Source: an uncultured Sphaerochaeta sp.
Lineage (GTDB): Bacteria > Spirochaetota > Spirochaetia > Sphaerochaetales > Sphaerochaetaceae
Assembly (NCBI RefSeq): GCF_963677315.1
Contig: NZ_OY781939.1
Location: 2,832,453 to 2,896,452 of the forward strand
Reading direction: 5' to 3'
DNA: 64,000 nucleotides
Shown here: positions 12,147 to 26,959 of the stretch, one piece after another
Numbering within the stretch: position 1 is the first letter of the stretch
Layout: every line of letters begins with the position of its first letter
Notes under the pieces: generated by a model
The model's input: only the letters and a program-made list of their open reading frames with translations
What the model was told of the DNA's origin: nothing
Database searches by the model: none
Program-made: the position numbers and the translations under genes

Positions 12147-12929
12147 ATGCTGAGACAATTGCTTTTGCTTAAGGATGAGTTGATTGAGAATAGGTTTGAT
12201 TCGAGTTGCAAGCGACTTTTTGAAGGTGCGGGGTTGGTAATAAGTCCCAAGGACATACCAGGCGGTTCGGGAAATTATCTTCTTGTGATCACACCATACG
12301 CACAAGCACTCAGTGCCTTGGTCAATAGACTCAAGGATATTTGCTCGGATCATCTGGATTATCTAAGCAAGTATTCCTTTTACGGCAGATTGGGAGAAGC
12401 CGCCAACAAATCTAGTGCGAACCACATGGATGAGAAATCCATTCTCCTCGATGTCAACGATGAAGCAATTCGGTATGCAGGCGAGGTTGAGACTATTGAA
12501 TACTTTGCTTATGGGTCCAATATGGACACATCCCAGATGACTGAGAGGTGTCATTCCGCCAAATCTATCGGTGTTGGCAGGTTGGTTGGCTACCAATTCT
12601 CTTTGGATGCCAAAGGTGTGGCTACTGTGCAAAAGAATCAGGATGAATCCGTATGGGGAGTTGGCTGGAATATCAATGGGGATGACATTGTTGCTCTCGA
12701 CGGGTATGAAGGGGTCAGGGCTTATTGCTATAGGCATGCATTCGTCCAAATAGAGTTCGAAAACATGGTTCATGACGTTCTAATATATATTTCAAACAGA
12801 GCTGAGAATCAGGGAGTCATGAGACAGGGGTACGTCGAGAAAATATACGATGCTGCTGTCCAATGGCAGTTTCCTCCCGTGTATCAAAATATGATCGGTG
12901 AATTTACCAATAAAAAACTCATGTCCTGA
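12147..12929 (+). CDS. protein with unknown N-terminal domain fused to gamma-glutamylcyclotransferase (GGCT/AIG2-like)
   Basis: The first ~115 of 260 residues are unrecognised. From about residue 116 the sequence has the GGCT fold: EYFAYGSNMDTSQM (the YGSN substrate loop), RLVGYQFSLDAKG, WGVGWNINGDDIVALD and GYEGV with the expected catalytic Glu. GGCT-fold enzymes cyclise gamma-glutamyl amines to release 5-oxoproline, or act on related isopeptides. The N-terminal extension is unusual. A second GGCT lies at 18599-19048 next to an amidoligase, so two enzymes of this fold are encoded within 7 kb. Start ATG follows AAGGAGAAAACGAA. Confidence 0.75.
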   Translation: MLRQLLLLKDELIENRFDSSCKRLFEGAGLVISPKDIPGGSGNYLLVITPYAQALSALVNRLKDICSDHLDYLSKYSFYGRLGEAANKSSANHMDEKSILLDVNDEAIRYAGEVETIEYFAYGSNMDTSQMTERCHSAKSIGVGRLVGYQFSLDAKGVATVQKNQDESVWGVGWNINGDDIVALDGYEGVRAYCYRHAFVQIEFENMVHDVLIYISNRAENQGVMRQGYVEKIYDAAVQWQFPPVYQNMIGEFTNKKLMS

Positions 12930-13000
12930 AACGAGTGATTTCCATTAAGCAGAGTCAATAATCCAATACGCTATTGTTGATAGCACAAAAGGAGTTTGGA

Positions 13001-13060
13001 ATGATTGAATTCTTTTTAACAGTAATAATCCTGTATTTCCTATTGACCGGAAAATTGTAG
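13001..13060 (+). CDS. possible 19-residue membrane peptide
   Basis: AAAAGGAG with ideal spacing precedes an ATG at 13001. The short frame gives a peptide that is almost wholly hydrophobic (MIEFF, then TVIILYFLLTGKL), ending at TAG 13058-13060. The size and one-helix make-up resemble KdpF-like or toxin-like small membrane proteins, but no homologue can be named. Its only support is the ribosome-binding site and composition. Confidence 0.35.
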   Translation: MIEFFLTVIILYFLLTGKL

Positions 13061-13082
13061 AAGGGATGCTTCAGGCTTTTAA

Positions 13083-14306
13083 TCAGAAATACCATGGCTT
13101 ATCGAGTATCTCAAATTCAGGGAGTTCCCAGGTATCAGGACCATTTTGCAATAGATACGATTCCGCCCATTCCACCCATTTGGCGAAGTCTGAACCGGAG
13201 TAAGTTGCTCCTAGTCGTTTCTTGCCCTCGGTTGAGACGACCTCGATGTATTCCTTCATCTGTTTGAACCTGACCAAGCGATCGGCTTCCTTGCCCAGGT
13301 TTTCAACCCTGGCTTTCTCCATACGTGCCAGTCTTTCCTGTGCCTTCCTTCTCTCTTCCTCAATCCTGTATTTGTCCTCCTGCATTCTCCAACAGGCTTG
13401 CTGTTCCTTGGTCGCTGCAACTCGCTTTATCATGTTGATGATGATGTCATGCAGCTGGTCCTCAATTTTTCTTTTCTTGCCATCATGCCATTTGGCCCAT
13501 GCATGGCTTCCCGAGGGATTGTTACTAAGCTCAAGGCTCAGTCTTCCAGACGGCACATACTTGTATTTCTGGTAAGACTTCTTCCGTTCTTCCTCGGACA
13601 GTTCTATCTTTTTTGAGGTCTCCATGATCCAGAAGGGGATGTAGGTATCCATTATGATCGCATAAACCTGGTTGACCACCCTTTCAGGATAGCTGTTTTG
13701 TGTCTCGGAGTCTTTGCTGCCTATCTCGGGTTTCGTCCCGACCGAATAGCCTCGCTTCTCAAGTTCATCACATAGGGTTTGCAGAATCGCAAGCACACGC
13801 TTGATGTTGTCAGGCCCGATGCTCACCATAAAGTTTTCATCGATATCTGAACTGCACCTGCCGTACTCATTGGTGGCATGCTTGCATGATTTTTCGAGCC
13901 CTCTCTTGGTATTCAACACATACTTGTTGGTGATCTTTATCTCTGGATCGAAGTCTACCTCCATGCCAGGGAGTTTCTCTTTGTCCAGGATCTGTTTTTC
14001 AATCTCAAAAGCCTCAGGTACAAGATGCACACGTTCTTTTTGCTCATCTTCTGAAGGAGGTCTGAAATAGGTCTTTTTCACCTTCGGGTATTTTTCTACC
14101 TTTGGAAGCGGAGTCTTCTTCAGTTTCTGGCCGCTCTGCATCTTGTTCCAGTATCCTGGCTCCGGCAAGGGGATGAGCATCTTGCGACAGGTTTTGGCTA
14201 TCGCCACATTAGACACACCATAGCGTTTTGCAACCTTGTAGACCGGCTCTGCCCAGACTTCCTCGTACAGTTTCTCACGGTCGTAATATCGGTCGGATTC
14301 ATTCAT
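13083..14306 (-). CDS. element-borne protein with N-terminal HTH-like domain, function unknown
   Basis: The 407-residue protein opens with YDREKLYEEVWAEPVYKVAK followed by RYGVSNVAIAKTCRKM and PGYWNKMQSGQ. This N-terminal module, probably a DNA-binding helix-turn-helix, is widespread in bacterial proteins of unknown role. The middle is mixed alpha/beta. Residues about 300-365 are Arg/Lys/Glu-rich and likely coiled coil (EEERRKAQERLARMEKARVE). ATG 14306 is chosen because AGGAGG stands eight bases before it; the frame is open further up to the recombinase stop at 14466. It is the last gene of the - strand element operon, just after the second serine recombinase, so a role in integration or its control is possible but unproven. 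Confidence 0.6.
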   Translation of the reverse strand: MNESDRYYDREKLYEEVWAEPVYKVAKRYGVSNVAIAKTCRKMLIPLPEPGYWNKMQSGQKLKKTPLPKVEKYPKVKKTYFRPPSEDEQKERVHLVPEAFEIEKQILDKEKLPGMEVDFDPEIKITNKYVLNTKRGLEKSCKHATNEYGRCSSDIDENFMVSIGPDNIKRVLAILQTLCDELEKRGYSVGTKPEIGSKDSETQNSYPERVVNQVYAIIMDTYIPFWIMETSKKIELSEEERKKSYQKYKYVPSGRLSLELSNNPSGSHAWAKWHDGKKRKIEDQLHDIIINMIKRVAATKEQQACWRMQEDKYRIEEERRKAQERLARMEKARVENLGKEADRLVRFKQMKEYIEVVSTEGKKRLGATYSGSDFAKWVEWAESYLLQNGPDTWELPEFEILDKPWYF

Positions 14307-14465
14307 GGTCTTGGCCTCCTGGATGGCAAGGAAATCATCGAAGCCAGGCTTGATGTGGATTCCCTGCCCATGGATACCATATACGCCATGCAATGGGGTT
14401 GTGCAACAAGAATCTCCGTTGGCATGGAAAGGGAAACACAGATGGAGCTTATACGGTGCCGGCAA

Positions 14466-16046
14466 TCAGACCCTGACTCCCATCCCGTTCCTGAAGGTGA
14501 TGCGTACCTCGTCCTTCGAGAATACCTCGACATGATCGGCCAGTGCATACCACAACTCGTCCGAGAATTCGGTCACCAAGCCCTCTTGCTCCCTGAGGGT
14601 GTTCAAAAACAGCTCGGTCCTGGTCCTCCGGTAGTTCCTGTCCTTGATTGCATCATCCAGTATGGCCAGTCGCTCCTTGACCTCAGCATACCTTTCGGTG
14701 AGGGTATTGTACGTTGCGAGGTATTTTTCCTGGTCCATCGCCACCGAGGCGTTCCGCTTGGTGAGGGCTTCCATCTGCCTGATGATTTCAGCCTTTTCTT
14801 TTTCCAGGTTTTCCATTCCCTCGATGTCGCCTGTGCTCTCGAACACCTTCTCCCTGATTTCACAGAAATTTCGGAGGATCTCTTCGCGACGGGCAATGAC
14901 CTTGTTCAGTGCCTTCACGTACAAAGCCTTGAACTCATCCTCGCTGAAGTTAGGGCTCTTGCAATGTTTGGCATCCCGCCCGTGCCTCTCGTTGCATTGC
15001 CAGACCACCTTGCGGTACTTGGTGTTGCTGTGCCATATCTTCGGGCCGTAGTCCGCACCGCAAAGGCCGCACCGGATGCGCCCGATGAAGACGCTGCATC
15101 CCCGTTTGTAGATCACATGCTTCCTGCGATGCACGGCTTCCTGCTGTGCCATGTCGAAGATGTCAGGGGGGATGATCGCCTCATGGTTGGCCTTGACGTA
15201 GTACTGGGGGACCTCCCCCTTGTTGAGCACCGCCTTCTTGGTGAGGAAATCGGGGGTGTAGGTTTTCTGCAGCAGGGCATCCCCCTTGTACTTCTCGTTC
15301 CTGAGTACCTGTGCAATGGTGGACGAATGCCAGTTGCAGCCACCGGTCACTTTCTCGAACCCCTCGTCCTCCAATTTCCGTGCGATTGCGTTCGGTGACA
15401 ACCCGCGCAGGTAAAGGGAGAATATGTATCGTACGGTCCGTGCCTGCCTTTCATTGACCACAAGATTTCCGTCGGGTCCCTTGTCGAAACCGAGGAAACG
15501 GGTGAAGGGGACGGCCACCCGGCCGTCGGCGAACCGCTTGCGGTAGCCCCATTTCACGTTCTCCGAGATGGAACGCGACTCCTCCTGTGCGAGCGAGCTC
15601 ATAATGGTGATCAAAAGTTCCCCCTTGCTGTCGAACGTCCAGATGTTCTCCTTCTCGAAGAACACCTCGACCTTGACTTCCTTGAGCCGCCGTATGGTGG
15701 TGAGGCTGTCGACGGTGTTGCGGGCGAAGCGGCTGACGCTCTTGGTGACGATCAGGTCGATCTTGCCGGCCAGTGCATCGGATACCATCGACCTGAACCC
15801 CTCGCGGTGTGCGGTGCTGGTGCCGCTGATGCCCTCGTCGGTGTAGATGCCGGCGAAGTCCCACTCAGCCTTGTTCTTGATCAGGTTCGTGTAGTAGTCG
15901 ACCTGTGCCTCGTAGGAGGTGTACTGGTCCTCCCTGTCGGTCGAGACGCGTGCATAGCCCGCGACCTTTCTCCTGGGGGCAAGGATGCCCTCCGGGTTCG
16001 CTGCCGCGATTTCCCTTGTAGCGGGGATAACCCGTACCTGTCTCAT
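14466..16046 (-). CDS. large serine recombinase (second of a coupled pair)
   Basis: The 526-residue protein is a complete large serine recombinase. The catalytic domain starts GYARVSTDRED with the nucleophile Ser at residue 35 and continues through VTKSVSRFARNT and SLAQEESRSISENVKWG. Next come the recombinase domain (about 180-290), a zinc ribbon (CGLCGADYG with CNERHG and HCKSPN), and a C-terminal coiled coil, EKEKAEIIRQMEALTKRN. Such enzymes cut and rejoin DNA at short att sites to integrate or excise elements. ATG 16046 overlaps the upstream recombinase stop as ATGA, with GAGGTG before it, so the two are translationally coupled. Confidence 0.93.
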   Translation of the reverse strand: MRQVRVIPATREIAAANPEGILAPRRKVAGYARVSTDREDQYTSYEAQVDYYTNLIKNKAEWDFAGIYTDEGISGTSTAHREGFRSMVSDALAGKIDLIVTKSVSRFARNTVDSLTTIRRLKEVKVEVFFEKENIWTFDSKGELLITIMSSLAQEESRSISENVKWGYRKRFADGRVAVPFTRFLGFDKGPDGNLVVNERQARTVRYIFSLYLRGLSPNAIARKLEDEGFEKVTGGCNWHSSTIAQVLRNEKYKGDALLQKTYTPDFLTKKAVLNKGEVPQYYVKANHEAIIPPDIFDMAQQEAVHRRKHVIYKRGCSVFIGRIRCGLCGADYGPKIWHSNTKYRKVVWQCNERHGRDAKHCKSPNFSEDEFKALYVKALNKVIARREEILRNFCEIREKVFESTGDIEGMENLEKEKAEIIRQMEALTKRNASVAMDQEKYLATYNTLTERYAEVKERLAILDDAIKDRNYRRTRTELFLNTLREQEGLVTEFSDELWYALADHVEVFSKDEVRITFRNGMGVRV

Positions 16047-17428
16047 GCCTGCACCTCCTCTTGCCCTGCAGCCTTCGCCCTTGCCAGTTTTTCCTTCCTG
16101 AGTACCCACGCATCCTTTCTGGCCGTGCTTTTCCAGGACGAGGAAATCACCCGCCCTTCCTTGAGGTGGAACTCAAGGTGGTCGCCGAAAACCACAATAT
16201 GGTCCACCAGGGTTTCGACCCAAGCAGGGTCGAACCCGGCATCGGAAGTGGCACTGGCGAGAGGACCCAGGACCGTGCAGCAGGTCTGCCGGAGGGAGCG
16301 GAGCGGGAGGTTTTTTGCGCTGCATGCCTTGGCAGTGTTGATGCGCTTGTTCGAGCACCGGTACTGGCCCTGTTGGAATTCGGTGATAACACCGGCGGAG
16401 GAGACCGCAGGGGTGTAGGTGAAGGTATGCCTGCAGGAGCCGCATACCAGCTTGGCCGTGAAGCATGAGGCGGAGCTCCATCTCACGACATTGATCCGGC
16501 GCCTTCTCTCGCGCTCAGCCTCGACCTTCTCATGCAGGTCGTCATCGATGATGCGGGGATGGGTGCCGTCCACCACGAACCTTGGCAGCTCCCCGTTGTT
16601 CATCTTTTTGCGGTGCGTGATGTGACTCTCTATGAAAGTGCGCTGGAGAATGCTGAAACCCCTGTATTTCTCCTGGTCGAGGATCCTCAGTATCGAGGAC
16701 TTGCCGAAAGGGTTTCCTATGCGGTTGAGGATGCCCATTGCCGCAAGGGCTTTGGATATCTCGATGAGCGTCCTGCCGCCCGCGAAAGCGCGGTACATGA
16801 AGCGCACTGCCTCTGCTTCACTCTCCACGATCTCGAAACGGTCACCGGTCCATCGGTAACCGTACATGTTGTAGGCTGGGAACTCCCCCTGCTCGAACCG
16901 CTTTCTGATTCCCCACTTCACGTTCTCGCTGATCGAGTGGCTTTCCTCCTGTGCATACGAGGCGAGGATGGAGAGCATGAGCTCGCCGTCGGGGGAGAAT
17001 GAATCGAGGTGCTCGCGCTCGAAACGTACCGAGACGTTCAGCCCTCGCAGCTTCCTCACGTTGTCAAGGAGGTCAACCGTGTTGCGAGCGAACCTGCTGA
17101 CCGACTTGGTGAGGATGATGTCGACCAATCCCTTCTCGCAGTCGGCGATGAGCCTTTTGAACTCGGCCCTGTTTTTCGTCCCCGTTCCCGATATGCCTGC
17201 ATCCGCATACACGCCTGCATATTCCCAGGAATGATTTGACTGGATGTATGTGCTGTAATGGCTTATCTGGGCTGCGAGCGATGCCATCAGCTCCTCGGAA
17301 TCAACCGAGACCCGGGCGTAGGCAGCCACTCTCTTTCGGGAAGGCAGGGCAGGGGTACCGTGGTTGACCCGTGTCACCTTTGCCATGCTCCCGATTTTCG
17401 GGGTCCTTTCAGCCTTGGAATTATCCAT
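16043..17428 (-). CDS. large serine recombinase (first of a coupled pair)
   Basis: The 461-residue protein has the catalytic core AAYARVSVDSEE (Ser 41), TKSVSRFARNTVD and SYAQEESHSISENVKWG, a recombinase domain, and a zinc-ribbon region with CGSC and CSNKRINTAKAC. Its C-terminus is shorter than that of its partner and ends in a basic region rather than a long coiled coil. Together with the coupled downstream gene it probably forms a two-protein integrase, an arrangement known from clostridial-type integrative elements. It has its own promoter-like unit at 17458-17490, and GGAG stands 9 nt before ATG 17428. Confidence 0.93.
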   Translation of the reverse strand: MDNSKAERTPKIGSMAKVTRVNHGTPALPSRKRVAAYARVSVDSEELMASLAAQISHYSTYIQSNHSWEYAGVYADAGISGTGTKNRAEFKRLIADCEKGLVDIILTKSVSRFARNTVDLLDNVRKLRGLNVSVRFEREHLDSFSPDGELMLSILASYAQEESHSISENVKWGIRKRFEQGEFPAYNMYGYRWTGDRFEIVESEAEAVRFMYRAFAGGRTLIEISKALAAMGILNRIGNPFGKSSILRILDQEKYRGFSILQRTFIESHITHRKKMNNGELPRFVVDGTHPRIIDDDLHEKVEAERERRRRINVVRWSSASCFTAKLVCGSCRHTFTYTPAVSSAGVITEFQQGQYRCSNKRINTAKACSAKNLPLRSLRQTCCTVLGPLASATSDAGFDPAWVETLVDHIVVFGDHLEFHLKEGRVISSSWKSTARKDAWVLRKEKLARAKAAGQEEVQA

Positions 17429-17457
17429 ATGTATACTCCGTAAATAATTGATTGTAT

Positions 17458-17490
17458 TGTATCAATCACTCTCCATGCCTCATTAGTCAA
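17458..17490 (-). promoter_or_regulatory. shared 33-nt promoter/operator unit, copy 1 (upstream of first serine recombinase)
   Basis: Read on the - strand: TTGACT, a 17-nt spacer ending GAGAGT, then GATTGATACA, 29 nt before the recombinase ATG. The -35-like half overlaps the stop codon of the SHOCT-like gene. The same layout recurs at 20070-20102 and 20388-20420. Confidence 0.6.
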
Positions 17491-17657
17491 CGAAACTCTG
17501 CGAACAAGCGGCCGAATGCAGGCTTGTATTTCTCCAGGAGCAATGCCTTGGTTTTTGCGAACTCATCCTGGGTCAGGAGTTCCGAACGCAACAGGTTTTC
17601 TGCAAGCGCAAGTGAAGCCTGGTAGGCCGATTCGGATGAAAAGCTCTCATCGGTCAC
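17487..17657 (-). CDS. small SHOCT-like protein of the recombinase module
   Basis: From a GTG at 17657, overlapping the end of the upstream gene, the product is 56 residues. It contains SALALAENLL-type helices and LLTQDEFAKTKALLLEKY, the short amphipathic pattern of SHOCT domains, ending GRLFAEF. Small proteins of this kind sit just before tandem serine recombinases in many Firmicutes elements. Their role is unclear, perhaps oligomerisation or helping the integrases. The frame is open further upstream, but that part overlaps the zinc-finger gene and is probably not translated. Confidence 0.6.
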   Translation of the reverse strand: MTDESFSSESAYQASLALAENLLRSELLTQDEFAKTKALLLEKYKPAFGRLFAEFR

Positions 17658-18069
17658 CTTCGTCCCCCTTGTAATAGCGTTCCTGGATGTAGCAATCGTG
17701 GCTGCAGTACTTGCGCCCGGCATTTCCGTAGGCGGTGAAATCCTTCCCACAATGGGCACAGGTAAACCGGTGCCATGCCGTGGCTGTTCGCTTTACGAGG
17801 TACAGGTGTGAGTTCCACCATTGCTGGCGGCAGGCCTTGGAGCAGAAGAGCTTTCTCTTCCGCTTGGCAATCTGCTCGATCGGTTTGCCGCATTGCTTGC
17901 AGCAGCTTCCCTGAGCCGGGTCATGTGCAGAGGATTGGCATTTCCCCTCCAGCCTCAGGCAAAAGGATTTGACGGTTCCCGCCTTCAAGCCCAGGGTTAT
18001 GGCCGCATGCCTGTAGCTGAAGCCCATCCTGCGCATCTCAAGGATCTTTTCTTTCTGGTTATCTGTCAT
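17647..18069 (-). CDS. HTH plus two zinc-finger (FCS/MYM-like) protein of the integrative element
   Basis: From ATG 18069 (AGGAGACCTAC before it) the protein has 140 residues. Residues about 5-40, EKILEMRRMGFSYRHAAITL and GLKAGTVKSF, look like a sigma-70 region 4 or resolvase-type helix-turn-helix. Two zinc-binding knuckles follow: CKQC with FCSKACRQQWW (about 57-85), and CAHC with KYCSHDC (about 104-127), both of the FCS/MYM style. It is probably a DNA-binding regulator of the recombinase module. The longer open frame to 18189 has no ribosome-binding site. Confidence 0.7.
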   Translation of the reverse strand: MTDNQKEKILEMRRMGFSYRHAAITLGLKAGTVKSFCLRLEGKCQSSAHDPAQGSCCKQCGKPIEQIAKRKRKLFCSKACRQQWWNSHLYLVKRTATAWHRFTCAHCGKDFTAYGNAGRKYCSHDCYIQERYYKGDEGDR

Positions 18070-18519
18070 GTAGGTCTCCTTCTGGATGCCGGGAAACCGT
18101 ACCCCTGGGAGATCAGTACCCATCTTAAATAGGGCAGTATGTCGAAGAAATTGGGATGTCTTGCAGATTCCCATCCAACGGTGAGTCAATGATAGCTGTG
18201 GGCGAAAATCCTTGAGGATGACATCTACAACCAGGGTATTATCTCAATCCACGACATTGGATTTGCCTCCGAGTGGAAGGAATCAGTTTCACGGTGCTGC
18301 TTGCAGTACAAGAAATTAAGGAAATTGCTTACTATGCCGATTGGTATCACATATTTCGAGTCGCCGAACGTGAACCATGACAATTCGCCTTCGCTGCATA
18401 GGCATAGACCTTATACAGCGAAAGCCTTCTCGTCGTTACCATTGATTTCCGAGCCCTATGCCACGAAGCGGGTGGGAGTGTATTTCTTCGGCTTTTTCAT
18501 GATGTTCCTGGGTGATATG

Positions 18520-18541
18520 AAAAAAGACCCCGGAGGGCCTT
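18520..18541 (-). terminator. rho-independent terminator after the GGCT gene
   Basis: On the - strand AAGGCCC pairs with GGGTCTT-side bases around the tetraloop TCCG (seven pairs, one G-U), and TTTTTT follows. It lies about 60 nt after the GGCT stop and separates the upstream amidoligase/GGCT unit from the zinc-finger/recombinase unit. The gap 18190-18519 holds no gene I can support. Confidence 0.65.
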
Positions 18542-18598
18542 CTGATCGGAAAGTTGCGAATTTGTCTTATGGTGGTATGCGTGGTCAACGTGACGGCA

Positions 18599-19048
18599 TC
18601 ACCGGTAGCCGGTGCCGTCCATTGTGTTGATCACCGCCTGCTTCAGTATGGTTTCGTCGAAATCGCAGTCTTGATACCCCTCCCGTATGGTCGCATAGTA
18701 ATAGGCGCCGGGCATTGCGAGCGGAGGCCCTTCGTTCATGATGTAGGCCATAGCCGTCAATTCATCCCCGTCAAGATTCACCGTGAGGTTTTTCTTCCTG
18801 TACAAGCGGGGGTAGCCCTCGTACCGATCGAGGGATTTCTCGCATTTCTCGGTAATCTCCCAAAGCAGCACCGGGACGTTGGATCCTCTTTTCATCTCTA
18901 TGGTTGCAACGCCGTTCTCGTGATTTCCGCGGAAGGTGAGCCGGTGGTCCTTGAGTATTGCCGTTCCGATGACAGCGGCATCGGGACATCTGTACTCCAT
19001 CTGCTCGAAGTTCAGGTTGCTCCCGTAGGCCAGATAGATTTTCTTCAT
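18599..19048 (-). CDS. gamma-glutamylcyclotransferase-fold protein (AIG2/GGCT)
   Basis: The 149-residue protein is a stand-alone GGCT domain: IYLAYGSNLNFEQM at the N-terminus (YGSN loop), LTFRGNHENGVATI, VPVLLWEITEKCEKSLD, RYEGYPRLY with the catalytic Glu position, and DELTAMAYIMN. It starts at ATG 19048 behind AAGGAG, about 80 nt after the amidoligase gene on the same strand. Amidoligase/GGCT pairs have been predicted to add and remove glutamyl-type amide links on peptides or other small substrates. The substrate here is unknown. Confidence 0.85.
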   Translation of the reverse strand: MKKIYLAYGSNLNFEQMEYRCPDAAVIGTAILKDHRLTFRGNHENGVATIEMKRGSNVPVLLWEITEKCEKSLDRYEGYPRLYRKKNLTVNLDGDELTAMAYIMNEGPPLAMPGAYYYATIREGYQDCDFDETILKQAVINTMDGTGYR

Positions 19049-19129
19049 GATTGCGTAGCTCCTTGTATTCTGGTTTCTACCACCGCAAGGGCGGTCGTCC
19101 CGCCCTCAGCTTCCGATGTCGCAACCCCT

Positions 19130-20035
19130 TCATGCAGCCGGTCGGAACCGCCATGCCCCTGAACCTGCCAGTCGCTTGGTAAGGTGTTCCCGGCAACTCT
19201 TGAATTCGTCCCCGATGAAACCGATTCTGTTCAGGTAGGTGCGCATCGCGAATTTCTCGTTCTCCACCTGCGGTTTCTTGGTGCTGGCGGAAGTCTGTTT
19301 CAATGCCTGGTTGTTCAGTGCGAGGGCGAAGGCTATGTAGCTCCGTACCTCGCCTGCATGCAGGGTGCTGTTGAATCCCCTCAGCTCGACGGTCCTGTGT
19401 CCGTGGAAAAAGGAGTGCAGGTTCAAAAAGTGGTAGCGGCTTTCGTGGTAGTGCATTTGCCTACTTCCCCGATATCCTGCGTACCAGATGTCCTCTATCG
19501 CATCGAAAGTGGTCGGTTTTCGGCGGTTCATGGTGGAGACAAGGTGTTCGTCCATCTTTTTGCAGTACCTGGCTCTTCTGGCTTCGATTCCCAGTGCCTT
19601 GTAGAAAAGATCGTTGCGGGCGTAGATGATGTTCACGAAGTTCCGTATCGAGCGTGGCGTATGGCCTTGTCCGTCCAGGTGGATGTGGATGCCGCAGGAG
19701 TTGTTTGCGAAGGCCCCTGCCTTGCGGATGGCGCGGATGACTTCCTGCATCCTTTCGATGTCGGCTTCGTAGGTGAGGATCGGGCTTACCATCTCGACAC
19801 CGTAAAGTCGTGTCGCGCTTTCCCTGGCCCCGTGGCTTCTCGTCTCGCATCTGATCGAGCCGTCGTAGGTGAACTTCCATTCCCGCCCGTCGGATGCCAT
19901 CAGTTTCCAGGTGTCGTAGTAGGATCCTTCGTATACCAGTTCTCCACCGAGCACCATCCGTGCAGCCTGGGCCGCATCCTTGCGGGTGATTCCCGTCATT
20001 TCTACTTCGATCCCGAATCTTGTCGTGGTGTCCAT
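19130..20035 (-). CDS. amidoligase family protein (Amidoligase_2, glutamine-synthetase-like fold)
   Basis: The 301-residue protein starts TRFGIEVEMTGI, the first metal-binding strand of the COOH-NH2 ligase (glutamine-synthetase-like) family. It carries SCGIHIHLDGQGHTPRS near residue 115, the GxHIHxD-type motif of Amidoligase_2, and HRTVELRGFNSTLHAGEV near residue 215, with the expected Glu and Arg. Family members are predicted to form amide or isopeptide bonds with ATP. The gene follows DUF4314 by 90 nt, has its own promoter-like unit at 20070-20102 and an AGAGAGG ribosome-binding site, and precedes a GGCT gene. Confidence 0.88.
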   Translation of the reverse strand: MDTTTRFGIEVEMTGITRKDAAQAARMVLGGELVYEGSYYDTWKLMASDGREWKFTYDGSIRCETRSHGARESATRLYGVEMVSPILTYEADIERMQEVIRAIRKAGAFANNSCGIHIHLDGQGHTPRSIRNFVNIIYARNDLFYKALGIEARRARYCKKMDEHLVSTMNRRKPTTFDAIEDIWYAGYRGSRQMHYHESRYHFLNLHSFFHGHRTVELRGFNSTLHAGEVRSYIAFALALNNQALKQTSASTKKPQVENEKFAMRTYLNRIGFIGDEFKSCREHLTKRLAGSGAWRFRPAA

Positions 20036-20069
20036 TGCCTACCTCTCTTTGGTGTGTTTCTTTTCGTAC

Positions 20070-20102
20070 TGTATTAATCACTCAAAGAGGGTTATATAGC
20101 AA
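20070..20102 (-). promoter_or_regulatory. shared 33-nt promoter/operator unit, copy 2 (upstream of amidoligase)
   Basis: Read on the - strand: TTGCTA, a 17-nt spacer ending TTGAGT, then GATTAATACA, 34 nt before the amidoligase ATG. The core GAGTGATTRATACARTAC matches copy 1 at 16 of 18 positions. Confidence 0.6.
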
Positions 20103-20126
20103 GTCTATATAATTAAATAAGATACA

Positions 20127-20366
20127 CTATTTCAATGATATCTCCTCGTACGGTTTTCGGATCATGTCTATCCCTGGGATCACCCCCAATGTCGAGCCGT
20201 TTGCCCATGCCACGTGGATGGTCCCGGTGTCGTCCACGTAGAGGACCTTTCCCTTCGTACCTCTTGGCGGGGCCATTTCATCATCCATGCTCACCAGTTC
20301 AACGATGCATCCCGCCGGGTATTGCTGGCGGAGGATCGCAATCCTGTTCCTGTCTATGTCTTCCAT
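20127..20366 (-). CDS. DUF4314 domain protein
   Basis: The 79-residue protein reads RIAILRQQYPAGCIVELVSM, then APPRGTKGKVLYVDDTG, IHVAWANGSTLGVIPG and ID, the full length of DUF4314. This is a small beta-barrel-like domain carried by prophages and integrative elements next to amidoligase-type genes. No activity is known. AAGGAG stands 8 nt before ATG 20366, and a promoter-like unit lies at 20388-20420. Confidence 0.85.
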   Translation of the reverse strand: MEDIDRNRIAILRQQYPAGCIVELVSMDDEMAPPRGTKGKVLYVDDTGTIHVAWANGSTLGVIPGIDMIRKPYEEISLK

Positions 20367-20387
20367 GGCTGTTTCTCCTTGTCAGGG

Positions 20388-20420
20388 TGTATTCATCGCT
20401 CAGGTTTTGGGTAATGGCAA
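20388..20420 (-). promoter_or_regulatory. shared 33-nt promoter/operator unit, copy 3 (upstream of DUF4314)
   Basis: Read on the - strand: TTGCCA, a 17-nt spacer ending CTGAGC, then GATGAATACA, 21 nt before the DUF4314 ATG. It is less conserved than copies 1 and 2 in the GAGTGAT core but has identical spacing. Confidence 0.5.
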
Positions 20421-20749
20421 GCCCCCAAGTTGTCATTCTTCCGCATGGGATCAATGGACAGACCACAGGCATTGTTATGTGGGAGGGCCGAAGAACATTC
20501 CCCTATAGCAATCACCTTTGATTTTCGCTACAAGGATGGGGAAAATTCACGATCATCCTGGGTATTCAAACGGTATCAATCATGTCCAAACTGCCTTCAA
20601 CATGCATTGCTGAGCGCCTTTGCCGGTTTTCCACGTTTGATTTAGAGGTTAATACCCCGTTTGAATTCGGCTTTTTGTGCGTGAGGGGAGCCGCACGTTG
20701 TAAGAGAAAATAGGCCTAGAGATTCAAACCCCCCTTCCCCCACAAACAC

Positions 20750-20836
20750 GGGGCAGGATGGGGCAGGTTTTTATAAGGGGGTGAAAAGTTCTCTCTTCAT
20801 GGAACCGAATGTAAATCCCTGCCACAAGCTGCCCCA
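20750..20836. repeat. GGGGCAG repeats beside the primase gene
   Basis: GGGGCAGG occurs at 20750-20757 and again at 20760-20767, and the complement CTGCCCCA occurs at 20829-20836, next to C/G runs at 20729-20741. The arrangement (two direct, one inverted) just beyond the primase stop could be an origin or primase recognition zone of the element, or simply a decayed repeat. The wider 20421-20839 stretch holds no gene I can support. A stem GTGCG/CGCAC near 20677-20696 can compete with a CGGCT/AGCCG stem. Confidence 0.3.
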
Positions 20837-20839
20837 ATT

Positions 20840-23137
20840 TCAATCAAGGAAATCCATATCGGGTTTCAGGCAATACCCGAGCAGCAGCGTGGTCTTCTCC
20901 CCGCCATCGAGGGGCCTGCGTCTTATAAGATTCCCATACTTCCTGAGTTCATTGTTGAAGCTTCTGATATTCTCAGCATAGCACCCGTTCGAGGCACACC
21001 AGTCGCGATATGATTCATAGATGTTCGACGTGCGTGCCTCGCCGCCTATCTGAGAAACCAAACGATCCTCGATGAACTGCTCGACCTTGTTGCTCTCATG
21101 GAAGTATGTCTGCGTGGCTTCCCTGACGGACTTGGGCATCTCCAGCCCCTCATCCTCAAGCATCCAGTATCCTTCCACAAGCCAATTCAGGATGGCACTC
21201 TGCACCTCGGGTTTGTTGAACTCCTGCTTGAGTGTCTTGTCCTGTTCCCATTCCTCGAAGTGACGGTCGAATGGGATGATGATGATCCTTCCGCTGCTGA
21301 AGAGCGTCATGTCGGTTACCACAGGGAGGTAGTTGGTATTGATGTAGAGTTTGAACTGGGGTTTGTAATCAAAGCTGTTCTCATTAAGGAACCGTGCGTT
21401 GATGGTATCATTGCCTGTCATGCTTTTCACCTGAGCGGCATTGATCACAAGTCCGCGGGCAGGCTCGGAGATGTTCGCAAAACGGATCCCGGCCAGGCGG
21501 GCGATGTCCTCACTCGGTCCCTGGCTGTTCACCTGGTTCTTCTGGGCGATGGTCTCCGGTCTGACCGATGCCCCGTAGTCCCCGAGCGATACGAGCACGC
21601 TTTCCGTGACTGTTCCCTTTCCGTTTCTGGTAAGCAAGCCGTAGAGAATGAACAGGCACTCATGACGGGTATCGCCGCTGATTCCGTAGCCGAATGATTT
21701 CTGCAGGAAGCGGGCTCTCTCCTTGTCGGAACTCATGATCTCGTCGACGAACGTGATGAACCTCTGGGACACCGCCGTCGGATCATAATCGATGCCGGTC
21801 ATCTTCGAGAGATAATCATCCGGTCGGTGTTCCCTGAATTCCCTCGTACCGAGATCCAACGTACCGTTGTTGCAGTTCAGGAGGTATTTGTTCTGATCGA
21901 ATAGGTGCATCGGTATGGGGAAGACACTCTGTGCTTCTTTCAGATATGTTTCTCTCACTCTCCTCTGCTGCCACTTCTGGCAGTTCTTGAGGAACCCCGT
22001 TCGGGCATTTTCCTCCTTGATGGAAAGGGCATACAGCAGCATGGAATCAGCAAGATCCTTGCACAGCTCCATGGCCTTTAGGGATCCGATATCTGCAACC
22101 CAGCGTTTGCCGTCATATATGTACCACTTGCGGCGCTCGGGAACATACCGGGCTATATCCTTGTAGACATCGGCGAACAATCGTCCGGAACCTATGTCGC
22201 TGTTGCGGTAACGTGGATTGTTCAGGACATCAAACCGGACCAGGATCCCGAGGACATCGTTGAAGTCCTCACTCGCTGGACCGGTGATCGCCGGCTTATA
22301 GAACTCCCGAGTCATTGAGACGGCGTTTCTCAATGTGTTCGTCCTGTAATCGTCCCGTTCCCATTTTTCCCTCATCAGACCTGACGCCCTGAAAAGCCTG
22401 TCCATCTGATCCATGTCACCGCCGCACCAGAATGCCAGCATGGAACACAGGGCTGCATCAGCCTCGCTATGCGATGTATCGTCGGCAAAACATCCTTCCC
22501 AGAGCTGTTTGAACTTCTCCCTGTTTCTGGCGGTCTGAGCCTTATGAAGGACCGATTCATCGGAAAGATAGGAAAGTGCGGGCGTGGAAGAAGGATTTAC
22601 TGATTCTTGCTTCCGCACCATGTAGGTGTCGAGCACCTTCATCAGTTCCGTGCTCCGCTCATTCACGCCCGCATCATGGATGACATTGCCGGTCATGGTG
22701 AGATACTTGTTCGTATATCCATGCACATAGATTTCCAGGCCCAATTTGCGATTGTTGATGTAATAGCGGGCTTTGTCGTATGAGAGCCCATCCGCTCTCA
22801 GATGGATGTGAACACCGGTTCCCGACGGACTGAGCTCTGCATAGGAGTCCATCGTCCTGACGATATCCTGCGCCATTGGTGAGAGCTTGCCGTCTTCGAC
22901 ACAATGGTCTATGTCAATCCCGCTGTAACCGTCGAACACCCCGATTCCGATTCCGTCGTATCCCTTGCGCGTCTCCATGACCCGTCCAAACCCAGCGAAG
23001 GTGCTTTTGTCACTCGACCTCGCTCTCATGCCGTTAACCTGGTAGGGGACCTTCGTCGTTCTTCCTTTGCGTTGTTCGTATTTCCACAAACAGAAAGACC
23101 CATTGACCTTCAATTCTTCCGGTACATTCTCGTACAT
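20840..23137 (-). CDS. P4/D5-type DNA primase-helicase of a mobile element
   Basis: The 765-residue protein starts at ATG 23137 behind GAAGGAAGG; a longer frame up to 23224 lacks a ribosome-binding site. The N-terminal part is a primase/polymerase-like domain: VNGSFCLWKYEQRKGRTTKV, GIDIDHC with the metal-binding acidic residues, and SPSGTGVHIHLRA. The C-terminal half is the D5_N plus superfamily 3 helicase region: LLNCNNGTLDLGTREFREH, a Walker-A-like LYGLLTRNGKGTVTE, and LYINTNYLPVVTD. This is the replication protein of phages, satellites and integrative plasmids. No relaxase or capsid gene accompanies it. Confidence 0.9.
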   Translation of the reverse strand: MYENVPEELKVNGSFCLWKYEQRKGRTTKVPYQVNGMRARSSDKSTFAGFGRVMETRKGYDGIGIGVFDGYSGIDIDHCVEDGKLSPMAQDIVRTMDSYAELSPSGTGVHIHLRADGLSYDKARYYINNRKLGLEIYVHGYTNKYLTMTGNVIHDAGVNERSTELMKVLDTYMVRKQESVNPSSTPALSYLSDESVLHKAQTARNREKFKQLWEGCFADDTSHSEADAALCSMLAFWCGGDMDQMDRLFRASGLMREKWERDDYRTNTLRNAVSMTREFYKPAITGPASEDFNDVLGILVRFDVLNNPRYRNSDIGSGRLFADVYKDIARYVPERRKWYIYDGKRWVADIGSLKAMELCKDLADSMLLYALSIKEENARTGFLKNCQKWQQRRVRETYLKEAQSVFPIPMHLFDQNKYLLNCNNGTLDLGTREFREHRPDDYLSKMTGIDYDPTAVSQRFITFVDEIMSSDKERARFLQKSFGYGISGDTRHECLFILYGLLTRNGKGTVTESVLVSLGDYGASVRPETIAQKNQVNSQGPSEDIARLAGIRFANISEPARGLVINAAQVKSMTGNDTINARFLNENSFDYKPQFKLYINTNYLPVVTDMTLFSSGRIIIIPFDRHFEEWEQDKTLKQEFNKPEVQSAILNWLVEGYWMLEDEGLEMPKSVREATQTYFHESNKVEQFIEDRLVSQIGGEARTSNIYESYRDWCASNGCYAENIRSFNNELRKYGNLIRRRPLDGGEKTTLLLGYCLKPDMDFLD

Positions 23138-23333
23138 ATCAATCCTTCCTTCGAAGTGCAGTGCCATCCCATCCCCGGCGGGATGAAATGCTGCCTCTGA
23201 TTGATACCGAGAAACCGTACTCATTGGGGAACAGAAAAATTCTTATGCAGGTATCGGCTTTGCCTGTTTGCATCATTTCACAACATATTTTTTATCCTGG
23301 ATGGCTTGGTCCTGACTGTTTTTGCTGAACCAT

Positions 23334-23609
23334 TTATTCGTCGGAATCCGAGGACTTGGAGACATACCATCTGAACAGTTCGATACGATCGAATGCATAC
23401 CCGTTCCCGACCTCCATGAAAGGAACTTCCCCCGTTGCAAGTACATAACCCAGGAAATCGGCTTCCTCGAAACCGAGTATGCTTGATGCCTCGCTGAAAG
23501 AAAGGATACGAAGCCTGTCGTGCTTGTTCGGATAGGGGAGGCACTTGAGATTCTCGACCTTGGAGAATCGTATGATCGAATTGATTTCTTTTCTGCTTAG
23601 GAAATTCAT
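23334..23609 (-). CDS. excisionase-like small HTH protein
   Basis: The 91-residue protein contains RILSFSEASSILGFEEADF followed by MEVGNGYAFDRIELFRWYVS, a winged-helix arrangement typical of MerR-like excisionases and DNA-binding adaptors of mobile elements. Its ATG overlaps the upstream regulator's stop as ATGA (23606-23609), so the two are translationally coupled. It may direct the recombinases toward excision. No activity is demonstrated. Confidence 0.6.
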   Translation of the reverse strand: MNFLSRKEINSIIRFSKVENLKCLPYPNKHDRLRILSFSEASSILGFEEADFLGYVLATGEVPFMEVGNGYAFDRIELFRWYVSKSSDSDE

Positions 23610-24094
23610 ACGATCGGATCCTTGTTCTCAGAATAAGAGCATATGAGTCCCACGAAATCGGAAATGGGAATTCCACAGGCCTTGCAATAGATCGATAGGG
23701 TGGTCACAGTCGGATATGATCTGTAACGGCTGCCTTCTCTCAAGTTGATTGCGGATAGTTGGAATGACGTCACTTTTGCAAGCATATGCTGGGAGAACCC
23801 ATTCCTTCTTCTGATTTCTTTCAGAGCCCTGGAAACATGCTCTTGCTCCAACGGTGGGTTTATTGTTTGTGGCCTGGGAGTGCATGAGCCTTTCTCCGCG
23901 TATTCAAAAAAACTGATTACATTGATGCCCAATGCATCGCAGATGCTCCAGATTGTATCAAGCTTGGGTTTCCATTCCGGTTTTCGGGTTACGGATTCCA
24001 TCCACCGTTTGGTGTGTTGGGTGCTTTTGGTGAGTTCAGAAGTTGTCATGTTTTTGATCTTCATCATATGGATAAGGGCTTTCTGACATTGCAT
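23606..24094 (-). CDS. double-HTH (XRE-like) regulator, first gene of the element
   Basis: The 162-residue protein has two helix-turn-helix segments. One is near residues 8-60 (MTTSELTKSTQHTKRWMESV, then PKLDTIWSICDALGINVISF). A second is near 88-145 (NGFSQHMLAKVTSFQLSAIN, then REGSRYRSYPTVTTLSIYCK). The protein at 35676-36242 has the same arrangement with many identical positions, so the two are paralogues. AAAGGAGG precedes ATG 24094. As the first gene on the - strand it is the likely repressor controlling the element. Confidence 0.75.
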   Translation of the reverse strand: MQCQKALIHMMKIKNMTTSELTKSTQHTKRWMESVTRKPEWKPKLDTIWSICDALGINVISFFEYAEKGSCTPRPQTINPPLEQEHVSRALKEIRRRNGFSQHMLAKVTSFQLSAINLREGSRYRSYPTVTTLSIYCKACGIPISDFVGLICSYSENKDPIV

Positions 24095-24140
24095 TCCTTG
24101 CAGACCTCCTTTTGCCTTTTGTTTCCATATGGCTGGGAGG

Positions 24141-24396
24141 TGAGCGTTTTGCTTCAGGAGGAAGGGAATGTTTATGGTTTTGTCAAAATAACGGACTTAC
24201 AGGGAATCTTGGTTGAGGCGAAATGTGAGCAGTCTGGGTATTTTTACAATGCTATACAGATAAGTTCATAGAAGTCTTCAAGGATGCAGATGGTAATGGG
24301 GATGATGAGTTTCAGATAGGGGAATGGGATAAATACGGATTGCCGAACAATATATGGTGGTTTTACGGACGGTATCGGAGGAGCTTAGGGAATTAA
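24141..24396 (+). pseudogene. possible remnant of an exported-protein gene
   Basis: Two overlapping + frames give protein-like text: GNVYGFVKITDLQGILVEAK in one and, after a frame change near 24250, EVFKDADGNGDDEFQIGEWD to a TAA at 24394-24396. The acidic DADGNGDDE stretch resembles calcium-binding or lipoprotein repeats of spirochaetal surface proteins. There is no start or ribosome-binding site. It may be decay debris at the element edge or chance. Confidence 0.25.
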
Positions 24397-24640
24397 CCTG
24401 GTTAAGTTGGTTTTACAAACCTACTTCGGCTGTTAAATGCCATTGAGGGGTATTATTACATTTATTCATCTAGCTCAATTTGGTTCAATCGGGAAAGTTT
24501 GCCATCCTTTTTCGGTAAACACTTCATGTCCATATTTTTCCCGAAAATAGAAATTCTTCTCACCTTTGATGAGTGAATTAATATTCAAAAAGTAATTACT
24601 TATACAATACTAAAAAACATTGAAAATAATTTTTTAAAAA

Positions 24641-24658
24641 AGATTGTAATTCCAATCT
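24641..24658 (+). promoter_or_regulatory. inverted repeat upstream of the Phd/HsdM operon
   Basis: AGATTG (24641-24646) and CAATCT (24653-24658) form a 6-bp inverted repeat around TAATTC, 56 nt before the Phd-like gene. The surrounding 24550-24650 is very AT-rich and promoter-like. The repeat is a candidate operator for the Phd-like protein, since such antitoxins usually repress their own operon. Confidence 0.4.
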
Positions 24659-24714
24659 ATTTGTGTACTACTATTAAGTGGAATAGACTGGATGTATTTC
24701 GAGGAGGAAGATCA

Positions 24715-24933
24715 ATGCCTGATAAGAAAACGACGCAACCCAAGGTGCCTATAATGGAACACCTGAACATAGCCGAATTCAACCGAGGGCAATCCTCGCG
24801 CCTTTTGAGGGAACTGGTAGAGACTGACAAAACAGCCTACATCCAAAAGAATGGTAAACCCATAGCAGTAGTGATGACCTATGCTCGCTATTTACGTCTT
24901 TGCGAGAAAGGAGTTGACATTAATGAGTACTAA
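24715..24933 (+). CDS. Phd/YefM-type antitoxin-like protein leading the type I RM operon
   Basis: From ATG 24715 (GAGGAGGAAGATCA before it) the product is 72 residues. HLNIAEFNRGQSSRLLRELV followed by YIQKNGKPIAVVMTYARYLR is the beta-alpha pattern of Phd/YefM DNA-binding antitoxins (target-binding loop KNGKPIAVV). No toxin gene follows; instead hsdM begins inside its last codons with an 11-nt overlap. It therefore probably acts as an autoregulator of the restriction operon rather than as half of a toxin-antitoxin pair. Confidence 0.75.
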   Translation: MPDKKTTQPKVPIMEHLNIAEFNRGQSSRLLRELVETDKTAYIQKNGKPIAVVMTYARYLRLCEKGVDINEY

Positions 24934-26959
24934 TATTTCTGAGAAATCAAACTTTATTTGGAAGATAGCCGATATCTTGCGCGGCGATTACAAACAGAGT
25001 GAGTATGGTGACGTTATACTCCCGTTCACCGTGTTGTGCCGTCTGGATAGCGTTCTTGCCCAGACCAAGGACCGAGTCATGGAGATTTACAGGAAAGGAA
25101 CGTTCAAAACGGATTACGCCAAACTGGCAGGGTTCAAGAGTATCACTGGTGGGTTGAAGTTTTACAATATCAGCGAATTCACAATCGCTAAGCTTAAGGA
25201 CGATGCCGCAAACATCGCTGATAACCTGACTGACTATATCAAGGGCTTTTCCGAGAATGCGCGCTCGATTTTGGAGTCTTTTGACATATATTCGCAGATT
25301 GCTCGCCTAGATAAGGCGAATCTGCTTTATCTTATCGTAACCAAATTTGTGGACGATATTGACCTCCACCCCGATCATGTCTCGAACAACGAGATGGGAT
25401 ATATTTTTGAGGAACTCATCCGCAAGTTTTCCGAAATGTCCAACGAGACCGCCGGAGAACATTTTACTCCGCGTGAAGTTATCCGCTTGATGGTTGCGAT
25501 GCTGTTTGATCCGGATATGCGCCTCATCACCGAGCCGGGATTCATGGCGAAGCTGTACGATCCAGCCGCGGGAACGGGCGGGATGCTTTCGGCGGGTATT
25601 GAATATGCCACTGAATTGAACAATCAGGCTCTTATCGAAGTTTATGGGCAGGAATTGAACGAGAAGACCTACGCCATCTGTAAGTCTGACACGATGATTA
25701 AGGGAAAGGGCTATGAGAACATCCATCTTGGCAATAGTTTCACCCAGGATGCGATGCCTCACGAAACTTTCCACTATATGCTTTGCAATCCGCCTTTTGG
25801 TGTGGAGTGGAAGAAGTATGAAAAGTTCATACGTGATGAAGCAGAGCGAGGCTATACAGGACGCTTTGGTGCGGGTTTGCCTCGTGTTTCGGACGGCTCG
25901 CTCCTGTTCCTGCAGCATATGATAAGCAAGATGATGGATTACGACCCGAATGACGACGGTTTGACCGGTTGTCGCCTTGCCATAGTCTTTAATGGTTCCC
26001 CGCTCTTCACGGGCGATGCGGGCAGCGGAGAAAGTGAAATTCGCAAATGGATTATCGAGAACGGCTGGCTTGAAACCATCGTTGCTTTACCTGACCAGCT
26101 ATTCTACAATACGGGTATTTTAACCTATGTGTGGATTGTGACCAACCGTAAGAAAGGTGTGCGGAAGGGCAAGATCCAGTTAATTGACGGTACATCCTTC
26201 TTTGAACGTATGCGTAAGCCGCTTGGGGAGAAGCGCAAGCTCATCAGCGAGGGGCAGAAAGACGAACTGACCCGAATCTACGGCGAATTCATGGAAGGTG
26301 AGTTCTGCAAAATCTTTGACGAGGACGATTTCGCATATTGGAAAGTGACAGTTGATCGTCCACTTCGGCTGAACTTCCAAGCATCGCCAGAACGTATCGA
26401 GCATATCCGCGAGCAAACTGCATTCGTCAAGCTTGCCACGAGCCGCAAACGTAAACCATCCGAATATGACGCGGAAGTCGCCGAGGGCAGGAATCAACAG
26501 GAAGCCATCCTTGCTGCCGTCGGTACGTTGGATGCTACGGTACTGTATAAAAATCGTGTCGAGTTCACTAAGTTACTAAAAATAGCGTTCAGGAAAACGG
26601 GCCTGGATGTTAAGACACCTCTGCTCAAAGCTATACTCACTGGGCTCGCTGAAAAAGACGCGACCGCCGACATCTGCACGGATGCAAAGGGTAATCCTGA
26701 ACCCGACACCGACCTCCGTGACACCGAACAGATACCCATAAAGGATGACATCGCCACTTACATCAAACAGGAGGTTCATCCTTATGCTCCTGATGCTTGG
26801 GTGGACGAGAGCAAGACCAAGAAGGGCTACGAGATTCCGTTTACGCGTCACTTCTACAAATACACGGAACTTGGGAATGCCGAAGATACACTTCAGGATA
26901 TTCAGACGTTGGGTGTGAAGATTCAGTTCGTAATAACAAAGTTGTTCGGGGAGGTATGA
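24923..26959 (+). CDS. hsdM: type I restriction-modification system methyltransferase subunit HsdM
   Basis: The 678-residue protein has the N-terminal HsdM helical domain (FIWKIADILRGDYKQSEYG) and SAM-binding motif I DPAAGTGGMLSAG (about residues 213-225). Before these lies the approach ETAGEHFTPREVIRLMV, and the catalytic motif IV is NPPFGVEWKKYE. It methylates adenine in the bipartite target chosen by HsdS. AAGGAG stands before ATG 24923. The gene overlaps the Phd-like gene by 11 nt and hsdS by ATGA. It is longer than many HsdM proteins because of a C-terminal extension (about residues 500-678). Confidence 0.95.
   Translation: MSTNISEKSNFIWKIADILRGDYKQSEYGDVILPFTVLCRLDSVLAQTKDRVMEIYRKGTFKTDYAKLAGFKSITGGLKFYNISEFTIAKLKDDAANIADNLTDYIKGFSENARSILESFDIYSQIARLDKANLLYLIVTKFVDDIDLHPDHVSNNEMGYIFEELIRKFSEMSNETAGEHFTPREVIRLMVAMLFDPDMRLITEPGFMAKLYDPAAGTGGMLSAGIEYATELNNQALIEVYGQELNEKTYAICKSDTMIKGKGYENIHLGNSFTQDAMPHETFHYMLCNPPFGVEWKKYEKFIRDEAERGYTGRFGAGLPRVSDGSLLFLQHMISKMMDYDPNDDGLTGCRLAIVFNGSPLFTGDAGSGESEIRKWIIENGWLETIVALPDQLFYNTGILTYVWIVTNRKKGVRKGKIQLIDGTSFFERMRKPLGEKRKLISEGQKDELTRIYGEFMEGEFCKIFDEDDFAYWKVTVDRPLRLNFQASPERIEHIREQTAFVKLATSRKRKPSEYDAEVAEGRNQQEAILAAVGTLDATVLYKNRVEFTKLLKIAFRKTGLDVKTPLLKAILTGLAEKDATADICTDAKGNPEPDTDLRDTEQIPIKDDIATYIKQEVHPYAPDAWVDESKTKKGYEIPFTRHFYKYTELGNAEDTLQDIQTLGVKIQFVITKLFGEV

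Follow-up and report, generated by a model that had tools for sequence, protein, structure and literature searches.

An uncultured Sphaerochaeta sp. carries, in a 64,000-nucleotide (nt) stretch of contig NZ_OY781939.1 (the window, i.e., the whole stretch that was analysed), a mobile element in which three copies of one bipartite sequence unit stand before a serine recombinase gene, an amidoligase gene and a gene for a DUF4314 protein. The unit has a rigid spacing, lies ahead of gene starts and is conserved at the same genes in relatives, and the copy before the amidoligase overlaps a stem whose arms covary. The explanation we favour, which we consider probable, is that the unit is a phage-type promoter with a sigma-like reader that places these genes in one regulon, with a hairpin lock added before the amidoligase.

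Shape and spacing of the unit

The original prediction described three copies of TTGMYW-N17-GATKRATACA placed 21-34 nt before start codons, and this description is accurate: the copies fit with zero mismatches (17458-17490, 20070-20102 and 20388-20420, minus strand) and end 29, 34 and 21 nt before the ATG of recombinase 1, the amidoligase and the DUF4314 gene, respectively (Table 1). Copies 1 and 2 do have 16 of 18 bases in common, in GAGTGATTRATACARTAC. The TGA stop codon of the upstream SHOCT gene falls within the TTGA of copy 1. Throughout the 3.5-Mb host genome, the pattern TTGMYW-N13-GAGYGATNRATACA has exact matches only at the three copies, and none when reversed; allowing 2 mismatches adds four sites. 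Since this pattern was derived from the copies themselves, its chance expectation of 0.0014 per window is post hoc. With 3 mismatches, there are 27 sites in the window versus 11.7 expected.

Evidence from outside the window is provided by a 40-column matrix, trained on 57 non-window copies and used with a hit threshold of 12 bits. The training rows were picked by a regular expression requiring TTG and AG, so that the invariance of those letters is partly due to selection, and at least one row fits poorly (minimum score -20). Across 163 loci and the window (3.86 Mb, both strands), 270 matches reach 12 bits compared to 0 in reversed sequences; because genome and viral-contig loci partly overlap, these matches are not independent. 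Two of the 270 are the window's own. A Shine-Dalgarno sequence and an open reading frame (ORF) follow 257 of them, and for the other 13 no ORF was found. Within the window, copy 2 ranks first (36.8 bits) and copy 3 second (13.6 bits), with a best reversed-sequence score of 1.1 bits.

For an information profile, 59 non-redundant copies were retained at 72% identity. The information resides in CTTGCTAT at positions 0-7, is very low at 9-12, where a T-rich stretch follows, and resumes at positions 19-31 with (T/A)AGAGTGAT and ATR; upstream of the unit there is a weak A/T bias and nothing else. When the gap between the two boxes is left free, it is identical in 73 of 73 TTGMTAW-TAGAGTGAT pairs and in 121 of 127 TTGMTAW-GAGYGAT pairs. 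Ordinary sigma-A promoters vary in spacing by a base or two, and the rigid spacing found here, unlike theirs, suggests an added or alternative factor.

The unit resembles sigma-70/sigma-A promoters in its TTG-type upstream box and in the 17-nt spacing to an A/T-rich hexamer. A TTGACA-like -35 box is present (TTGCTA or TTGACT, with a TTG that is nearly invariant, in part through selection of the training rows), the variant upstream boxes TTGACTTT and TTGACTAT are -35-like as well, and some variant copies have TAATAT at the 17-nt spacing. It differs from such promoters in its poor -10, in the conserved GAG before the -10 and in having hardly any spacing variation. The proposal that the conserved GAGTGAT is unlike a plain -10 box holds in relatives, where the block reads GAGYGAT, and the relatives likewise argue for a promoter-like family with fixed spacing. 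In T4 MotA-type middle promoters, a TTGCTTTA-like box replaces the -35; the likeness to our unit is confined to the box, and the spacing differs. The sigma-28 and sigma-54 consensus sequences were also compared and dropped.

Occurrence of the unit in relatives and phages

Amidoligase relatives were found in 90 phage records and in at least 160 loci (at least 80 each from genomes and viral contigs). The close ones are 79-84% identical (best segment); their genome records mostly carry the names of spirochaetes, alongside virus contigs with unstated host. The motif is not missing from orthologous elements: most amidoligase leaders retain it, as do 12 of 23 close-relative DUF4314 leaders and six of eight recombinase stretches. 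In the close-relative amidoligase leaders, TTGMTAT and AGTGATTACTACAGTAC are present in 25 out of 25, while 51 more distant leaders have TTG-N16-GAGYGA (33), a CTGTGT variant (13) or neither (5). Of all amidoligase leaders with enough upstream sequence (155, window excluded; 5 of the 160 loci had too little), 111 score at least 12 bits and 34 have one of two variants. The 12 DUF4314 leaders consist of a TTG-type box with GAGCGATCAATG; 8 others have a diverged GGCAATCAATG form and 3 something else.

The genes behind the matrix matches encode amidoligase 1, a second amidoligase family (PHROG 2443), DUF4314, DUF7678 and DUF6329 proteins, small unknown ORFs and, at loci L166 and L063, serine recombinases. 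When viral contigs were scanned for the motif without regard to genes, at least 124 non-identical copies were obtained. A Shine-Dalgarno sequence and an ORF lie behind 123 of the 124 listed, a count that has no matched control and accepts ORFs cut by a contig end. Among the matches listed, 58 precede second-family amidoligases and 18 amidoligase 1 (76 together), 10 recombinase relatives, 5 DUF7678 genes, 5 members of a 69-residue family, 1 DUF6329 gene and 27 other genes or none.

Matches to recombinase 1 with E <= 1e-40 occur in 25 of 139 family genomes, from which eight close stretches (66-75% identical) were taken. Six (L188, L189, L190, L191, L192 and L194) have the unit directly behind a pair of genes encoding a helix-turn-helix (HTH)/zinc protein and a SHOCT protein (partly judged by eye); no unit was seen in L193, and the L195 stretch is incomplete. 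The recombinase units of these six combine a TTGACTAT-like box and a diverged spacer with a block like GAGTGATTGATACAATACAA, and L191, whose recombinase is 67% identical, has the same 27 bases GAGTGATTGATACAATACAATCAATTA as copy 1 with a different spacer. In L189, L192 and L194 a second HTH/zinc gene separates the unit from the recombinases; in these three, the HTH/zinc-SHOCT pair is duplicated wholly or partly, and the unit lies between both copies. As orthologous elements hold the unit at the matching place, copy 1 appears to be a regulatory site that the recombinase module has conserved. The L188 module, in surroundings that are otherwise non-phage as judged by eye, is a minimal one of HTH/zinc, SHOCT and two recombinase genes. 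Its recombinase 1 gene (14617-15927) has one internal stop codon, and the module may be decaying.

Judged by its sequence, the unit occurs widely in Firmicutes and spirochaete phages, which the original prediction had missed. That the same unit stands before amidoligase, DUF4314 and recombinase genes in relatives supports the proposed single regulon. A search of the PMC literature for strings of the unit, which leaves most subscription papers and preprints outside, met only unrelated papers.

A stem over the amidoligase ribosome-binding site

The amidoligase copy is surrounded by a predicted hairpin, also missed previously, whose arms covary. The window leader folds into a 13-bp stem of -13.2 kcal/mol (z -3.2), and 0 of 200 shuffles are as stable. 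In a swap test with 15 non-redundant amidoligase leaders, the leaders' own arms pair at -14.7 kcal/mol compared to -10.7 kcal/mol for swapped arms (0 of 10,000 permutations), and the own partner is in the top five for 14 of the 15. Under a looser rule, 17 leaders give the same two values (-14.7 and -10.7 kcal/mol; 0 of 5,000 permutations). The pair types, taken from free duplex folding and not from a fixed alignment, differ at positions 9-18 of the 5' arm; at position 11, for example, TA, GC, CG, AT and TG occur among 26 leaders. For the spacers of the other 42 copies, the swap test gives -6.6 versus -5.6 kcal/mol (3 of 5,000 permutations); the 44 "other" copies of the first swap test contained a few amidoligase leaders, and the later sorting gave 17 and 42. 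Control regions yield differences of about 1 kcal/mol or less, both upstream (all copies 6, others 18 and amidoligase leaders 267 of 5,000 permutations) and at the start region (others 6, amidoligase leaders 344 of 5,000). The stem is claimed for the amidoligase leaders only, where the signal is far above that of the control regions.

Passages of two papers (PMC3014915, PMC2988022) describe how, in T4 gene e and I-TevI, a late promoter lies within the region encoding the 5' strand of a hairpin that sequesters the ribosome-binding site; the read-through mRNA is locked, and the mRNA from the nested promoter, without the 5' strand, is free. A similar arrangement is reported for mobE of phage Aeh1. 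As in these passages, the amidoligase stem pairs the Shine-Dalgarno region with upstream sequence, and the unit overlies the 5' arm. By contrast with T4 late promoters, our unit is bipartite and rigidly spaced, is not TATAAATA, and belongs to unrelated phages and hosts; it also stands before several gene families, in Firmicutes and spirochaete phages, and its stem before the amidoligase covaries. Because one stem arm sits in the promoter spacer, a lock makes sense in which read-through messages are closed and local messages free, and by analogy with T4 gene e and I-TevI we would expect such a read-through lock at the amidoligase.

In the mechanism that we infer for promoter activity, start site, reader, lock and timing, the upstream box TTGCTAT (TTGACT(AT) before recombinases) would occupy the -35 position, with the block GAGYGAT..ATRYA beginning 12 nt after this seven-base box. 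RNA polymerase would use the unit probably together with a small sigma-region-4-like phage protein, of the DUF1492 type in most phages and perhaps the HTH/zinc protein in the recombinase module. Amidoligase, DUF4314, DUF7678 and serine recombinase genes inside phage operons would thereby gain their own transcription start and form one regulon. At the amidoligase, a second layer would be added, the spacer and GAGTG block pairing with the Shine-Dalgarno region, so that read-through messages from upstream carry both arms and are locked, while messages from the nested promoter lack the 5' arm and are translated.

Other stems accompany the unit elsewhere. The variant unit TTGCTATCCTGTGTTTTCAATGGCCTAATGTAC retains a separate stem, CTGTGTTTT/AAAACACAG. 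Four L017-type amidoligase leaders (L109, L113, L134 and L150) have a variant unit without GAGYGAT and a conserved stem of their own; their records (G008, G010, G023 and G025) have no DUF1492 match and weak matches to the ArpU model. At L106 3152, the whole unit lies between inverted arms GGTAATAC/GTATTACC, one of them upstream of the TTG box and the other at the ribosome site, and from their positions only a read-through message could form this pairing. In the second amidoligase family, a short putative hairpin (TACC...GGTA) recurs in the leaders, such as that at L041 4752, close to where transcription is expected to start, as read by eye.

Candidate readers, alternative explanations and the mobile element

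ArpU, RinA and DUF1492 proteins form what we take to be one group of phage sigma-like late-promoter activators. DUF1492 (PF07374) is matched at E <= 0.01 in 18 of 20 unit-bearing viral records versus 1 of 5 others, and above the curated cut-off in 15 of 20 versus 0 of 5; the association has a one-sided hypergeometric probability of 0.0055 when kinship is ignored. In all 18 unit-bearing records with a match, the DUF1492 gene and the nearest unit share a strand, and the gene is 3.3-7.4 kb upstream. PHROG 36 ("transcriptional regulator") is matched by each of the three DUF1492 proteins scanned, and two of the four that lie over or near the Pfam model show a weak Sigma70_r4 match as well. DUF1492 is matched somewhere in 4 of the 5 genomes that contain the recombinase module. 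The window element and the genome of L188 depart from a DUF1492/ArpU-type late regulon in having no DUF1492, which we treat as a candidate reader. As an obligatory reader it was rejected, since the latter genome (G140) carries the recombinase unit without it. The host genome has, outside the window, a short DUF1492 frame (G000:C1:2789163-2789360) with no obvious phage neighbours by eye, perhaps a prophage remnant. Two further models were set aside: the ArpU model TIGR01637 (9 of 28 phage records, none over the cut-off) and PF08281 (23 of 28 records at E <= 0.01, 9 over the cut-off), which is uninformative as it matches all 14 control genomes too.

The original prediction had nominated two proteins of the element as readers. 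The double-HTH protein (23606-24094) is not supported: a tblastn search of the 160 loci (flanks up to 6 kb) gave nothing at 1e-4, and in 28 whole phage records a single weak match was found, to the second domain only (27%, 2.2e-4). The HTH/zinc protein (17647-18069) adjoins the recombinase unit in orthologous elements and is a candidate local reader of copy 1; as a general reader it was rejected, since no more than 5 of 28 phage records contain it, G021 and W01 among them being the same phage. Its predicted structure (pLDDT 77, pTM 0.31) has a best PDB match at E 0.12, with LuxR-type and sigma region 4 domains among the weak matches, and its sequence profile matches SigE region 4 at 0.037-0.038, below unrelated chains, mostly zinc fingers. 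Overall, sigma-region-4-like proteins seem better candidates than the double-HTH protein.

Several observations weigh against the proposed promoter with a sigma-like reader. The 17-nt spacing holds, but the hexamers at that distance (GATATA, GATTAA and GATTGA) fit a sigma-A -10 poorly. Copy 1 scores 4.0 bits on the external matrix and ranks fourth, below a chance site at 12015 (7.2 bits). Ten of the 155 amidoligase leaders have neither the unit nor a known variant, and phage record L167 has no matrix match before its amidoligase and matches elsewhere. The DUF1492 association is confounded by phage kinship; there is no DUF1492 match in the window element, nor in the L188 genome (97% complete), though this module may be a decaying one. 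As regards the lock, window copies 1 and 3 have no evident stem (read by eye; the copy 3 duplex is at -3.0), and the small swap signals of about 1 kcal/mol may reflect shared base composition.

Among the alternatives, the covarying stem could mean that the unit is an RNA leader, in which TTGCTAT would be an (extended) -10, transcription would start just before the stem, and GAGUGAU..AUGUA would be the conserved loop of a structured 5' leader that regulates translation upon binding a ligand or protein. The amidoligase leaders do combine a covarying stem with a conserved loop, and those of close relatives are conserved across much of the intergenic region. However, many copies without a stem keep both box and spacing, the variants TTGACTTT/TTGACTAT of TTGCTAT are less like a -10, conservation is lacking at what would be its last position, and Rfam 15 covariance models have no match in the leaders (window 12000-26000 and 9 loci). 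As the sole explanation, an RNA leader was put second because so many copies are stemless and the spacing holds regardless, and we regard it as unlikely.

The invariant spacing would also suit one rigid protein-DNA complex, i.e., an operator whose two boxes, 21 bp apart, are both read by a phage DNA-binding protein that acts as repressor or activator of a host promoter. TGMTAT and TGATAT resemble a direct repeat, visible in the TTGATAT variants, but the recombinase and DUF4314 copies do not retain such a repeat, and among the families searched none is present in all unit-bearing records. Such an operator is quite improbable in our estimate, and it is compatible with a promoter. The loose pattern and the low matrix score of copy 1 would fit a chance likeness of three ordinary sigma-A promoters, which is very improbable overall: conservation at orthologous genes and the 270:0 ratio of matrix matches refute it for copies 2 and 3 and make it unlikely for copy 1. 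Hardly credible is a recombinase recognition or attachment site, as copy 1 just upstream of recombinase 1 might suggest, given that the unit also precedes amidoligases and small ORFs and that an attachment site would interrupt the order HTH/zinc-SHOCT-unit-(HTH/zinc)-recombinases, which is kept across elements.

Table 1. Features of the mobile element and of the three unit copies in the window
Feature	Position	Strand	Sequence or basis
Serine recombinase 2, tandem with recombinase 1	14466..16046	-	PF00239, PF07508, PF13408
Serine recombinase 1	16043..17428	-	PF00239 + PF07508
Copy 1, before recombinase 1	17452..17490	-	TTGACT-N13-GAGTGATTGATACAATACAA
SHOCT_2 protein, between HTH/zinc protein and copy 1	17487..17657	-	Pfam; gene order kept in orthologous elements
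HTH/zinc protein, weak sigma-region-4-like N-terminus	17647..18069	-	PF08281 0.0028 (below cut-off); PHROG 2308
Gamma-glutamyl cyclotransferase, AIG2-like; third cassette gene	18599..19048	-	PF06094, 9.3e-14
Amidoligase (Amidoligase_2)	19130..20035	-	PF12224, 1.1e-73
Hairpin 3' arm, holds amidoligase Shine-Dalgarno AGAGAGG	20041..20054	-	Folding; covariation in relatives
Copy 2, before amidoligase	20070..20102	-	TTGCTA-N13-GAGTGATTAATACA
Hairpin 5' arm, in promoter spacer and GAGTG block of copy 2	20079..20092	-	Folding; covariation in relatives
DUF4314 protein	20127..20366	-	PF14192, 3.9e-28
Copy 3, before DUF4314	20388..20420	-	TTGCCA-N13-GAGCGATGAATACA
D5-type/NrS-1-like primase-helicase	20840..23224	-	PF08706, PF22763
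Double-HTH (XRE) protein	23606..24094	-	Pfam; no convincing relatives in unit-bearing loci

According to Pfam, the element encodes two serine recombinases, an amidoligase, DUF4314, AIG2-like cyclotransferase, SHOCT and double-XRE proteins, and a D5/NrS-1-type primase-helicase. With DUF4314 present in 118 and the cyclotransferase in 156 of the 160 amidoligase loci, the amidoligase, DUF4314 and cyclotransferase genes form a phage cassette. When the window was scanned with the external matrix, no match was found in front of the cyclotransferase gene. In three records of Ca. Heliusvirales, the cassette is flanked by the replication genes and the terminase; one of the three, L167, has it on the opposite strand. 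The G+C content of the element (13000-24100) is 52%, compared to 39% on its left and 47% on its right side. A type I restriction-modification locus (24661-31287) adjoins it on the opposite strand, behind a small antitoxin-like ORF, with methylase-, specificity- and restriction-subunit-like ORFs as judged by eye. Beside recombinase 2, the large ORF 13083-14465 resembles by eye an ORF near the minimal module of L188 (10622-11965) and is possibly a further part of the recombinase module. A helper-dependent satellite, suggested by the primase-helicase together with the host DUF1492 fragment, was considered and set aside: that fragment has no obvious phage neighbours by eye, the 72 kb left of the window has no matrix match of at least 3 bits, and the genome has a single amidoligase.

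More tentatively, and with rather less confidence than we have in the promoter itself, the unit may be a distinct promoter class, read by phage sigma-region-4-like proteins (DUF1492 in tailed phages and the HTH/zinc protein in the recombinase module), that spread with amidoligase and serine-recombinase modules between Firmicutes and spirochaete phages and was repeatedly kept in covarying ribosome-site hairpins that block read-through expression. If true, a widespread group of gut and environmental phages could be recognised by this promoter signature, as could the amidoligase/DUF4314/cyclotransferase cassette, which is poorly understood, and DUF1492 and the HTH/zinc protein would be named as candidate readers. 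The T4-type nested-promoter lock would then also be known from phages of Gram-positive bacteria and spirochaetes, where covariation is the evidence for it, and the regulon would become testable, i.e., as a set of phage genes that are switched together with recombinases.

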